Shown here: piece after piece, positions 3,247 through 7,978 of the stretch
How the letters are laid out: every line of letters starts with the position of its first letter
How positions within the stretch are numbered: the first letter of the stretch is position 1
Origin: a virus
DNA length: 33,841 bases
Strand: one strand, 5' to 3'
Virus record (IMG/VR): IMGVR_UViG_3300026320_000018
Span: 1 to 33,841 of that record
Notes under the pieces: model-generated
The model's database searches: none
What the model saw: only the letters and a program-made list of their open reading frames with translations
What the model was told of the DNA's origin: nothing
Made by a program: the position numbers and the translations under genes

Positions 3247-4016
3247 GTTTTGGTGATGATACACTTGATACTTCTAATATTCCTTTACCAATAAAGCATC
3301 CTCTAATTGGAGTTCTCGATCATGGGTTTGTACGCCTCGTTAATAGTATGGGTAGTGACATTGATATTGTGCGTTCTGCTAGAGTCAGCTACAACGCCGA
3401 TTGGCGCAGTGAGCCAGAAACTTCTGACAGGGTTAGCTCCACATTTCAGAGCAAGGATGAGAAACTTATTAGTTACTTGCTACGTAACAAACATACTAGC
3501 CCTTTTGAGTCTGTGGTATTTACTTTTGAAATTAAATGTCCTATCTTTGTAGCAAGACAATGGCATCGTCATAGGACTTGGGCTTATAATGAAGTAAGTG
3601 CAAGATATACGGAGCTTCCTAATGAAGTTTATCTTCCTACTTATGATAAAATAACAACTCAAAATAAAGATAATAAACAGATGAGAACAGAAGAACAAAA
3701 TCCTCATGCGCATATTATTCTTAAATCTATAACAAATAATTCAGTTGAATCCTTTAAACGCTATCTAGAACTTCTTGGATTAGGATGCCCTCGTGAACTT
3801 GCAAGAATGGTATTGCCACTTAATACTTATACGCGCTTTTTTGCTACTGTTAACTTGCATAATCTATTACATTTTCTTCGCTTGAGACTTCATTCTCATG
3901 CTCAATATGAGATAAGAGTTTATGCGGAAGCAATACTTTCTATAATAGAACAAATAGTTCCAGTCACCTACAAACATTTTCTAGTTGATTTAGATAATTT
4001 AGGAATTCTTGTATGA
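3243..4016 (+). CDS. thyX: flavin-dependent thymidylate synthase ThyX
   Basis: A 257-residue protein carrying the ThyX signature RHR(x7)S at residues 109-119 (RHRTWAYNEVS), followed by ARYTEL. The N-terminal VRSARVSYN and the later RELARMVLPLNTYTRFF are also typical of the family. ThyX makes dTMP from dUMP with methylene-tetrahydrofolate, FAD and NADPH, and in phages it supplies thymidine for DNA synthesis. The gene starts in an ATGA overlap with the 63-aa ORF and ends in an ATGA overlap with an HNH-type gene. Length is normal for the family and the catalytic motif is intact. The first half shows more varied codon use than the second half and the AT-rich genes around it. Confidence 0.95.
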   Translation: MSFGDDTLDTSNIPLPIKHPLIGVLDHGFVRLVNSMGSDIDIVRSARVSYNADWRSEPETSDRVSSTFQSKDEKLISYLLRNKHTSPFESVVFTFEIKCPIFVARQWHRHRTWAYNEVSARYTELPNEVYLPTYDKITTQNKDNKQMRTEEQNPHAHIILKSITNNSVESFKRYLELLGLGCPRELARMVLPLNTYTRFFATVNLHNLLHFLRLRLHSHAQYEIRVYAEAILSIIEQIVPVTYKHFLVDLDNLGILV

Positions 4017-4360
4017 GTTTAAAAAGAAGATTACGTAATAAAGTTTATAGACCTAAAGCTTATATAAATCATAAATTAGCTTATACATCTTGGTGTGCTA
4101 TGAGACAAAGATGTAATAATAAAAATAATTGTCAATATAAAGATTATGGAGGACGAGGAATTACTATTTGTAATGAATGGAATTCATTTAAAAATTTTTT
4201 AGAGGACATGAATGATCCTCCAATAATATTTGGCCAAAGACTTTCTTTAGAGCGTAAAGATAATAATGGTAATTATAATAAGGATAATTGTATATGGGCT
4301 ACTCATACAGAACAAATGAATAATAAAAATGAATACCCAAAACATCGTATTCTAATTTAA
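4013..4360 (+). CDS. HNH-type homing endonuclease-like protein
   Basis: A 115-residue, very AT-rich gene overlapping the thyX stop by ATGA, with GGAA upstream. It has the familiar phage layout: YTSWCAMRQRCNN, then YGGRGITICNEWNSF, then LSLERKDNNGNYNKDNCIWAT and a terminal EQMNNK. The second half matches the HNH-like segment (LDRIDN-type, NGNY...NC.WAT) of small freestanding phage endonucleases and DNA-binding proteins. The first catalytic His is not obvious, so the protein may be a nicking enzyme, a DNA-binding remnant or an active homing nuclease. Its place directly behind a thymidylate synthase gene fits a selfish element, since thymidylate synthase genes are well-known homing targets. Confidence 0.7.
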   Translation: MSLKRRLRNKVYRPKAYINHKLAYTSWCAMRQRCNNKNNCQYKDYGGRGITICNEWNSFKNFLEDMNDPPIIFGQRLSLERKDNNGNYNKDNCIWATHTEQMNNKNEYPKHRILI

Positions 4361-5352: not shown

Positions 5353-5541
5353 ATGAAGATTGGTCATAAACTAACGGAAGATCAAGTATCTCAAGTTCTT
5401 CATATGCTTGAAGAAGGTAAGAGTCAAGAAGAGATTGCAGAAATTTTTAATATAACTCAAGGGATGGTTTCTCTTATTAAAAATAGAAAACGATGGTCAC
5501 AGCCATTTATAGTTTGGCGTACTTGGCCTTTTGGTAAATGA
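5353..5541 (+). CDS. small helix-turn-helix protein
   Basis: A 62-residue protein starting one base after the previous stop. Residues 7-46 read as a helix-turn-helix of the type used in small regulators and transposase-like domains: LTEDQVSQVLHMLEEGKSQ, EEIAEIFNITQGMVSLIKN. The tail is short and Trp-rich. A DNA-binding role is likely from the fold; whether it regulates phage genes is not visible. It immediately precedes the DNA polymerase. Confidence 0.7.
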   Translation: MKIGHKLTEDQVSQVLHMLEEGKSQEEIAEIFNITQGMVSLIKNRKRWSQPFIVWRTWPFGK

Positions 5542-5542
5542 T

Positions 5543-7009
5543 ATGGATTCCTCACCAATTCTCTTAATGGTGACTCCATTTGATGTTCCATATCTTTCAA
5601 CCTTACGTCCCCTTCTTAAGGGACGAAAGACTTATTGTATTGAAGCAAATCCTGACACTGCTGCGGAGATAGAACTTTATGCAAGGAGTAAAGGTATTAA
5701 GTATATCATCACCACAAATAATATTGTACTTAATAAGATTATTGAGAGCCAACGACATCAATCCCTCGATAACTGGGCTGGATCTATATATGAACGGGCG
5801 GGAATCACATATCTCTTCCTTAATCCTCTTAGACAGTTATATAGTGTTTCATATGGACGATTCTTGGCTGACAGATTCATTAGTAAGATCGTACAACCTT
5901 CATTATGGCCACGGACACCTCAATTCTCATGGGAATTGGCCAGAATTGAAACTATCGAAAGATGGTTTCATCTCTACTCGCAAACTGTGGTTATTGCAGT
6001 TGATATTGAAACTGTTTCGTTTGAGAATCCATCAAACGGGGAACTTGAAACTGCTATTCGTTGCTTAGCATTTACTGGTTTATGGAATGATGGGAATATT
6101 CATACGATAGTTATTCCAATCCTTGATGCCCCCGAGAAAGAACAACTTTTTTGGATTACTTGGATGAGGAAATTCCTTCTCCTCAAGATACCAAAAATTT
6201 TTCAGAACGGATTATATGATAACGCCCACTGCATTGGTTATTCATCGCCAGGATATGGATATTTCTTTGATACACAGAGTCTTTTCCATTCGTGGTACTG
6301 TGAGTTGCCAAAAAACCTTGCCTTTATTTCCGGATTTACAATTCACAATGTTTTCTATTGGAAAGACCTCGCCAAAGAAACTGGAAGATACTATGAGTAT
6401 AATGCTCGCGATGGCTGGGCGACACTTGTTTCCGCAATGGGACTTATTAAGGAAATGCCTAACTGGGCATGGACAAATTATTTACTTAAGTTCCCCATAT
6501 GGGTTCCTTGCTTATATTCCAACCTTGAAGGAATCAAAGTAAATGAAGCAATCCGAGATAAACTCTCAAAAGAATGCATTACAGAGTTTGAAGCTTCACG
6601 TAATAGATTGGAACGATGGTTCGGAGAAGGATTTAATGGAAACTCTTCAACTCAAGTTACAAAGCTTATACAGTTCTATGGAAGTACAGATATTACCAAT
6701 GCCGACGAAGATGCTCTTAATAAATTCGCCTTGCGTCATCCTCTCAATGCTCGATTTAGTAGAGAAATCCTCCATCTTAAAGCAATGGCTACAATTATTA
6801 GTAAATCGCTCAAACCTGAAAATTATAGTATCTCTAAGAAACCATCTAAACGGAAAAGTTATTTACTCCGATCTGGCAGATTCTACTATACTCTTAACCC
6901 CGATGGTACCGATACTACAAGACTTAGTTCTGGAGAAGGTTATAACTGGACGGGTGCAAATATTCAAAATCAAGATCCACGAGTAAAGGAAATGTATGAA
7001 CCGGATTAA
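5543..7009 (+). CDS. family A DNA polymerase, N-terminal part (3'-5' exonuclease and thumb)
   Basis: First piece of a polymerase split into two ORFs. The start is taken at ATG 5543; an in-frame TTG at 5531 is possible, and neither has a strong ribosome site. An N-terminal region of about 140 residues precedes a DnaQ-type proofreading domain: Exo I VIAVDIETVSF with Asp154 and Glu156, Exo II NGLYDN, Exo III YNARDG with Asp290. The rest is the thumb and start of the palm, ending with GANIQNQDPRVKEMYEPD, which in family A enzymes comes shortly before motif A (compare the NLQN segment). It then stops at TAA. Motifs A, B and C are in the ORF at 7166. The proofreading residues look intact. The two pieces probably assemble into one replicative polymerase. 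Confidence 0.88.
   Translation: MDSSPILLMVTPFDVPYLSTLRPLLKGRKTYCIEANPDTAAEIELYARSKGIKYIITTNNIVLNKIIESQRHQSLDNWAGSIYERAGITYLFLNPLRQLYSVSYGRFLADRFISKIVQPSLWPRTPQFSWELARIETIERWFHLYSQTVVIAVDIETVSFENPSNGELETAIRCLAFTGLWNDGNIHTIVIPILDAPEKEQLFWITWMRKFLLLKIPKIFQNGLYDNAHCIGYSSPGYGYFFDTQSLFHSWYCELPKNLAFISGFTIHNVFYWKDLAKETGRYYEYNARDGWATLVSAMGLIKEMPNWAWTNYLLKFPIWVPCLYSNLEGIKVNEAIRDKLSKECITEFEASRNRLERWFGEGFNGNSSTQVTKLIQFYGSTDITNADEDALNKFALRHPLNARFSREILHLKAMATIISKSLKPENYSISKKPSKRKSYLLRSGRFYYTLNPDGTDTTRLSSGEGYNWTGANIQNQDPRVKEMYEPD
6986..6998 (+). promoter_or_regulatory. ribosome binding site and start inside the polymerase N-part gene
   Basis: AAGGAA at 6986-6991 lies four bases before ATG 6996, all inside the last codons of the polymerase N-terminal ORF. 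It decides the start of the 57-aa gene and lets ribosomes reload before the polymerase stop at 7007. Confidence 0.65.
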
Positions 7010-7169
7010 AATTGTAGCTACTCTACATGATGGAAAGACACGAGAAATTGGATCATGGCCGTTACCTTTACATACAAAAGAAGATCAAGATGATGTTATA
7101 TATTATATTAGAAGTGAATTAGATGATCCTAAAGTATCTAGAATAGAAATAATCACTTATTCTGCATGA
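6996..7169 (+). CDS. 57-aa protein wedged between the two polymerase ORFs
   Basis: The ORF starts 14 bases before the end of the polymerase N-terminal gene, in another frame, with its own Shine-Dalgarno. Its TGA overlaps the ATG of the polymerase C-terminal gene in an ATGA. The product is 57 residues with alternating short strands and charged loops (RIKIVATLHDGKTREIG, DVIYYIRSEL, KVSRIEIITYSA), like a small alpha/beta protein. It has no HNH, GIY-YIG or LAGLIDADG signature, so it is not a recognisable homing nuclease. The DNA between the flanking polymerase codons is too short for a group I intron. It may be an inserted accessory gene, or a subunit bridging the split polymerase; both are inference. 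Confidence 0.7.
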   Translation: MNRIKIVATLHDGKTREIGSWPLPLHTKEDQDDVIYYIRSELDDPKVSRIEIITYSA

Positions 7170-7978
7170 GCAACTTTTTCTTCTGTGAACTTGATAATGA
7201 ACAAAGTGAATCAAGATGCACGGCTTATCTTAGCGGAGATGAAAATCTCATCTCAGCGGTGGAATCCAATAAAGATTTTCATGCGATTAACATTGAGAGA
7301 TTTTTTGGTGTACCGTACTCAGATATTATTGGACCGAATGGAGAGATTCTCAATAAAGAGTTACGTGATCTTAGCAAACGTGTTAATCACGGTGCAAATT
7401 ATAATATGGGTCCAGCCAAACTTCTTGAGACAATGGGAGAAGCAAATGTGGATAGAGCTAAAATTCTTCTTAATCTCCCTAAGCTTTGGACTCGTTTAAT
7501 GGTATGTGAATATTTATTGGATCTTTATGATAAAGCATATCCAGAAGTTAAAACGATTTGGTACTCAGCAGTTAAAGAACATATTAGATCCACGCAAAGA
7601 TTGGTATCACCTCTCGGATGGACGAGATACTGCTTTGGCAATCCAGATAAAAGCAAATCAGATCTTAATGCCTATGTTGCCCACCCGCCACAGAATCTTA
7701 GTGTTAGTATTATCAATGAAGGGTTTAAAGATATTTTCTGGAAAGTCCAGACTCTTAACTCAAAAGATTTGCGTCTTAAAGCTCAAATACACGACAGTAT
7801 CTTTTTGGAAATACGTATTGGCAAAGAAAAACTTATCGAAGAAGCCAGACAAATTTGTATTCGTCCGACATCTGTTATGGACTGTAAGGGTACAACAAGG
7901 ATAATGACAATTCCAGTTGCAGCAAAAATTAATATGAATAATTGGAAGGATATGAAAAAATGGACATTAAACTCTTAA
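7166..7978 (+). CDS. family A DNA polymerase, C-terminal part (palm and fingers)
   Basis: Second piece of the split polymerase, 270 residues. It begins almost exactly at motif A: CELDNEQSESRCTAYLSGD, where Asp, Gln, Glu and Arg match the D..Q.E.R pattern of DYSQIELR. Motif B is SKRVNHGANYNMG (K...NxGxxY). Motif C is QIHDSIFLE, with His-Asp kept but Ser in place of the usual Glu of HDE. It is in the same frame as the N-terminal ORF, and joining them would give EMYEPD directly before SNFFFCELD, a natural family A sequence. No Shine-Dalgarno precedes the ATG, so translation most likely depends on termination of the 57-aa ORF (ATGA). Catalytic aspartates of motifs A and C are present. Confidence 0.9.
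   Translation: MSNFFFCELDNEQSESRCTAYLSGDENLISAVESNKDFHAINIERFFGVPYSDIIGPNGEILNKELRDLSKRVNHGANYNMGPAKLLETMGEANVDRAKILLNLPKLWTRLMVCEYLLDLYDKAYPEVKTIWYSAVKEHIRSTQRLVSPLGWTRYCFGNPDKSKSDLNAYVAHPPQNLSVSIINEGFKDIFWKVQTLNSKDLRLKAQIHDSIFLEIRIGKEKLIEEARQICIRPTSVMDCKGTTRIMTIPVAAKINMNNWKDMKKWTLNS

Follow-up and report, generated by a model that had tools for sequence, protein, structure and literature searches.

A phage family A DNA polymerase gene cut in two before motif A around a small overlapping ORF probably encodes a two-chain enzyme

Introduction

The family A DNA polymerases, among them Klenow, Taq and the T7 enzyme, have been studied as single-chain enzymes. The locus described here raises the question of whether some phages build such an enzyme from two chains instead. 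It lies in a virus record of 33,841 bases, which we refer to as the window. Here the reading frame of a family A polymerase stops just ahead of motif A and is taken up again downstream in a separate open reading frame (ORF). An initial annotation, made from the sequence alone, left two options: a polymerase of two chains, or the joining of the two pieces by some unseen step. A comparable arrangement was described in 2023 for MEP401 and MEP402, OM43 phages of the Zobellviridae in which the polymerase occupies two ORFs around a small unknown ORF, and the authors suggested an intron as the reason for the split (PMC10580990). We ask below which of these explanations the window supports, and how widely the same cut is found among other phages.

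Results

The two parts of the polymerase gene, which we call polN and polC, are encoded on the same strand with a third, small ORF between them. The features that matter for the argument are as follows, with residue numbers referring to a read-through chain of both halves.

5543 to 7009, plus strand: polN, 488 aa, with the exonuclease and thumb of a family A DNA polymerase together with its first palm strands; the last residues are VKEMYEPD, then a stop
6002 to 6412, plus strand: exonuclease motifs I to III in polN (D154/E156, N222/D226, Y286/D290)
6987 to 6991, plus strand: AAGGA, a putative Shine-Dalgarno sequence for the small ORF, with an identical motif upstream in the relative L001
6996 to 7169, plus strand: the small ORF of 57 codons, between polN and polC and overlapping both
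7007 to 7168, plus strand: the interval whose removal would rejoin the frame; 162 bases in the window, 158 in L001
7166 to 7978, plus strand: polC, the catalytic half; its 270 aa cover everything from the motif A strand onward, including the C terminus
7193 to 7210, plus strand: motif A in polC, from the catalytic D551 to E556
7364 to 7402, plus strand: motif B in polC (R608, K612, H616, Y620)
7790 to 7795, plus strand: motif C in polC (H750, D751)

The C-terminal end of polN reads RVKEMYEPD and is followed by TAA at 7007–7009, and polC opens at 7166 with ATG AGC AAC TTT (MSNFFFCELDNEQ), giving a protein that begins MSNFFFCELDNEQSE. Both halves match the DNA polymerase profile phrog_17 over consecutive stretches of it (632–984 for polN, E=2e-19; 1008–1236 for polC, E=4e-25), Pfam DNA_pol_A matches polC (E=3e-14), and a profile search using the family alignment finds Klenow, Taq and Bst. 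The catalytic residues of motifs A, B and C and of the three exonuclease motifs are conserved in at least 90% of 65 aligned rows. The initial annotation had read the locus as a family A polymerase split into two ORFs before motif A, with every catalytic motif kept on one side or the other, and both statements are borne out: the ORFs are separate, each is matched by the profile, and every exonuclease and polymerase motif is preserved. When the halves are aligned with E. coli Pol I, the cut lies in the turn that immediately precedes the motif A strand; after its start methionine, polC begins eight positions before the catalytic aspartate. A histidine in motif B (KRVNHGANYNMG, window 7388–7390) replaces Phe762 of E. 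coli Pol I and is likewise conserved in at least 90% of the 65 rows.

The 162 bases between the halves are no mere spacer: the interval carries the 57-codon ORF, which was missed in the initial annotation. This ORF shares 14 nt with the end of polN, where it starts, and 4 nt with the beginning of polC, where it stops. An identical cut and the same three-gene layout are found in L001, a separate IMG/VR contig whose halves are 81% identical to those of the window. Both junctions overlap in both contigs, the first as ATG..TAA and the second as ATGA in the window and TTGAGTAA in L001, where the start codon of polC is TTG. No good Shine-Dalgarno site precedes polC, and AAGGA precedes the small ORF in the window and in L001 alike. 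The small ORF is itself conserved in L001 (34 of 58 alignment columns identical), and its protein is predicted by AF2 to form a compact beta-beta-alpha-beta domain (pLDDT 93.7).

Sequence searches with the 57-aa protein gave no significant relative, the phage matches reaching only E of about 0.3, and a profile of the small ORF found no homologue in any of the fetched loci. There was no match to a homing endonuclease in Pfam and phrog searches, and no significant match in fold searches, where the best hits were at E 0.13 in the PDB and E 0.002 in BFVD. Two candidate relatives were rejected: the match in L083 is a chance one of 20 aa inside another protein, and comparison with gp14 of MEP401 showed no relation. 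Within the gap, promoter-like matches occurred only at the rate found in shuffled sequence, and no terminator was found. Two other ORFs upstream deserve mention. A 115-aa ORF at window 4013–4360 has a C-terminal part (RLSLERKDNNGNYNKDNCIWATHTEQMNNKN) that resembles, by eye, phage homing endonucleases of the HNH/AP2 type, and it gave no Pfam match; a 62-aa helix-turn-helix ORF directly before polN (window 5353–5541) is weakly like the DNA-binding part of phage HNH endonucleases and has no match in L001.

The unsplit counterpart that the initial annotation suggested looking for is readily found. Among the best 80 of the 257 window-family stretches in the viral collection, a sample in which rarer splits may be missed, 78 of the 79 other loci read continuously through the cut site, and L001 is the only close relative with the three-gene layout. 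Single-chain polymerases of the same family, which align with both halves, are carried by PaP2 (Fredfastierviridae), Aeromonas phage P5, Polaromonas phage Tiera and EBPR podovirus 3; unlike the window, these phages encode the enzyme in one uninterrupted gene. L075, a close relative of L073, was considered as a further split relative and rejected, as it has a different arrangement, a short frameshift (L075:5960–6000); this lies exactly at the cut site and may be an error or a fresh break.

A single normal chain could still be produced if the interval were a mobile intron, or the remnant of one, that is removed from the mRNA. Phage polymerase A genes commonly carry group I introns (PMC11878797), and the junction is seamless in the window, where removing 7007–7168 rejoins the frame, as had been pointed out. 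The observation is correct for the window but does not extend to L001, in which the spacing is 158 bases; the in-frame spacing of the window is thus a one-in-three coincidence, and the spacing has changed by a number that is not a multiple of three while the ORF has been kept. Against an intron, too, is the size of the interval: phage group I introns contain roughly 350 nt that do not code (PMC11878797), far more than the 158–162 nt present here. Neither a gathering nor a permissive search against Rfam gave a match, and the interval is a conserved overlapping ORF whose RNA fold is unremarkable (z −0.01). We consider an intron very unlikely.

It could also be supposed that the polymerase gene is broken and decaying, and that the phage relies on another polymerase; the uninterrupted gene kept by nearly all close relatives (in the best 80 of 257) would be compatible with this. 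However, both halves are under purifying selection. In simple pairwise estimates between the window and L001, dN/dS is 0.18 for polN and 0.086 for polC, values similar to the 0.13–0.20 in four intact neighbouring genes (AAA_24 at 0.14, the 2176 ORF, the 2512 ORF and ThyX at 0.19) and 0.14 in the primase. With these low ratios, intact catalytic residues and a split that is kept in a relative 19% diverged, decay is highly improbable. For the small ORF the corresponding estimate is 0.31–0.37 (Fisher p 0.003), and low dN/dS together with conservation in L001 suggests that polN, the small ORF and polC, which all look translated, are also maintained. The dS values for the same pair are 0.75 for polN, 0.74 for the small ORF and 1.55 for polC, a spread that may be noise or may reflect recombination at the cut.

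The halves might also be joined on the ribosome, whether by bypassing of the T4 gene 60 kind, by readthrough or by frameshifting, and the frame is indeed the same on either side of the interval in the window. Readthrough would nevertheless have to pass eight in-frame stops. A bypass would take off from GAT and land on a codon that does not match it, ATG in the window and TTG in L001; it would have to accommodate a spacing that goes from 162 to 158 in L001, and there is no special RNA fold to assist it, so that joining on the ribosome is extremely unlikely. Protein splicing, with the halves carrying split-intein pieces and being ligated after translation, has a parallel in the split intein reported in polymerase B of phage MIJ3 (PMC6892783), but neither half here extends past the natural boundary by any residues that could be intein pieces, and the probability of such splicing is close to nil. 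Misassembly, raised as a concern at the outset, or sequencing error is excluded in practice by the independent contig L001, which shares the layout at 81% identity. With no signature of an intron, bypass or intein, the unseen joining step is unlikely, and of the two options first put forward it is the two-chain polymerase that is favoured.

Structure prediction with AF2 used a read-through chain, in which an artificial linker some 54 residues long connects both halves, and 64 further rows of the alignment. The chain was predicted as one complete polymerase with a pLDDT of 89.2 and a pTM of 0.88, and only the artificial linker (491–540) was unstructured; the best PDB matches in Foldseek were Klenow and Bst, with a TM to target of about 0.7. 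Taken with the position of the cut in the turn before motif A, the model suggests that the two chains can fit together in the way the same parts do in the single-chain polymerase, and would presumably be so arranged on assembly.

The same cut is found well outside the close family. MEP401 and MEP402 resemble the window in that one small ORF separates an exonuclease-bearing N part from a catalytic C part, and the alignment puts the MEP401 cut within about 3–4 residues of that in the window, but these phages belong to a distant clade and their small ORF, of 77 aa, is unrelated. A scan with the second half of the MEP401 polymerase yielded 80 contigs, of which 76 could be scored, and every one of the 76 has a split no more than a few residues away from that of the window. 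Measured from the stop, the spacing between the halves in these loci runs between −17 and +635 nt. The halves overlap by 17 bases in L156 and L162 and by one base (TAATG) in L140 and L142, spacings of 26–48 nt also occur, and other gaps hold one or two different small ORFs. One gap carries a 142-aa endonuclease (L175:2567–2995; phrog_3322, E=8e-29), and in MW202796 (L183, MW202796.1 6800–13500) a stretch of about 3.6 kb that contains seven genes separates the halves. Because the spacings range from overlap to 3.6 kb, neither an intron nor a bypass can explain the MEP401 clade as a whole; an intron would not fit distances of −17, −1 and 26–48 nt, or halves that are 3.6 kb apart.

The gap contents of individual contigs are varied. 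The gap ORF at L179:3782–3988 is an R67-type dihydrofolate reductase (PF06442, E=3e-22), and the polymerase half that follows it is interrupted at a run of A's, possibly through a sequencing error. In L099 a second small gap ORF, a winged helix-turn-helix protein (L099:3543–3764; PF14090), stands beside the usual gp14-like ORF, and the genes between the halves of MW202796 include a cytosine methyltransferase and a stomatin-like protein.

Among annotated phages, QDWS535 (OK172329), MW202796 and MW202697 have polymerase A recorded as two CDSs and cut before motif A, as in the window. In the Alcaligenes phage vB_Af_QDWS535 the halves overlap by one base and there is no insert; of the two Caudoviricetes records, MW202796 has its halves separated by about 3.6 kb, and the halves of MW202697 enclose an R67-type dihydrofolate reductase ORF. 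MEP401, MEP402 and QDWS535, all with a split polymerase, are each recorded with a named bacterial host. Scans with the C halves of QDWS535 and PaP2 gave no viral contigs beyond PaP2 itself, and the HMO-2011 polymerase, compared with 2,668 phage records, gave no further split among the 60 matches listed; as most matches covered less than half of the query, this comparison is a weak test. A two-chain polymerase had been called rare, and this is so in the close family (78 of the 79 others unsplit) but not overall, as the distant MEP401 clade is uniformly split.

On a tree of 52 polymerases, split and unsplit, in which long branches are flagged between the two halves of the tree, the split state needs two changes, and these are forced by strongly supported branches. 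A tree constrained to group every split form together is rejected by the AU test (p = 5e-73), and this rejection of a single origin indicates that the polymerase was cut at least twice, in the lineage of the window and L001 independently of the MEP401 clade. Support for the placement of QDWS535 relative to the MEP401 clade is 76/70, leaving room for either a shared or a separate origin of their splits.

Discussion

In all likelihood, the window phage makes a two-chain family A polymerase that is translated from overlapping cistrons. We propose that the ancestral gene encoded a single-chain polymerase, that a small gene was inserted at the turn preceding its motif A strand, and that this insertion may itself have caused the split. 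The result would be three overlapping cistrons, polN, the 57-aa ORF and polC, presumably carried on a shared mRNA and co-expressed. The polC cistron would most likely be translated by termination-reinitiation at the ATGA overlap, given the overlaps, the want of a clear Shine-Dalgarno site for polC and the AAGGA before the small ORF. The two chains might then assemble non-covalently along the interface of the single-chain fold to act as one polymerase with proofreading. This two-piece version of the enzyme very probably works, as a distant phage lineage has been cut independently at the same spot.

Some points tell against the two-chain reading. The absence of a good Shine-Dalgarno site and the TTG start in L001 make the amount of polC that is produced uncertain; furthermore, the model is of a single read-through chain with an artificial linker and not a true prediction of two chains, and only one close relative has the layout. 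A broader proposal is that family A DNA polymerases break preferentially at the turn before motif A, where stable two-subunit forms arise independently, that the gap serves as a landing site for small genes, and that the 57-aa protein acts as a third subunit, bridging the halves or regulating them. We regard this as speculative and, taken as a whole, unlikely.

What appears to be new is the lineage of the window and L001, its independent origin, the shared cut site and the varied contents of the gaps, including genes that are well separated, although our literature search did not extend to most subscription journals and earlier reports may exist. An independent origin, a shared site and varied gaps together make a strong case for two-chain family A polymerases. 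The shared cut before motif A in two lineages implies that the palm can be assembled from two chains. Phages with the split would thus hold natural two-part polymerases, and the cut site could be used in the engineering of split polymerases. The result also argues against the intron that was suggested for MEP401-type phages, and it warns that split genes may be dropped from surveys of phage polymerases or counted twice in them.

Core enzymes of other phages are known to be divided in a similar fashion. The ribonucleotide reductase of Aeh1, whose nrdA is split by mobE, works in pieces (PMC2988022). There, as proposed for the window, the insertion of a gene has divided a core enzyme into two functional chains; it is however a different enzyme, and the insert is a homing endonuclease, whereas the 57-aa protein of the window matches no endonuclease. 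With 43A and 43B of Aeromonas phages 25 and 44RR, a replicative polymerase is also made as two chains. These belong to family B rather than family A, and the gap between them is occupied by a seg homing endonuclease or by untranslated sequence, but in the case of phage 25 the two chains purify together and show activity (PMC2988022).
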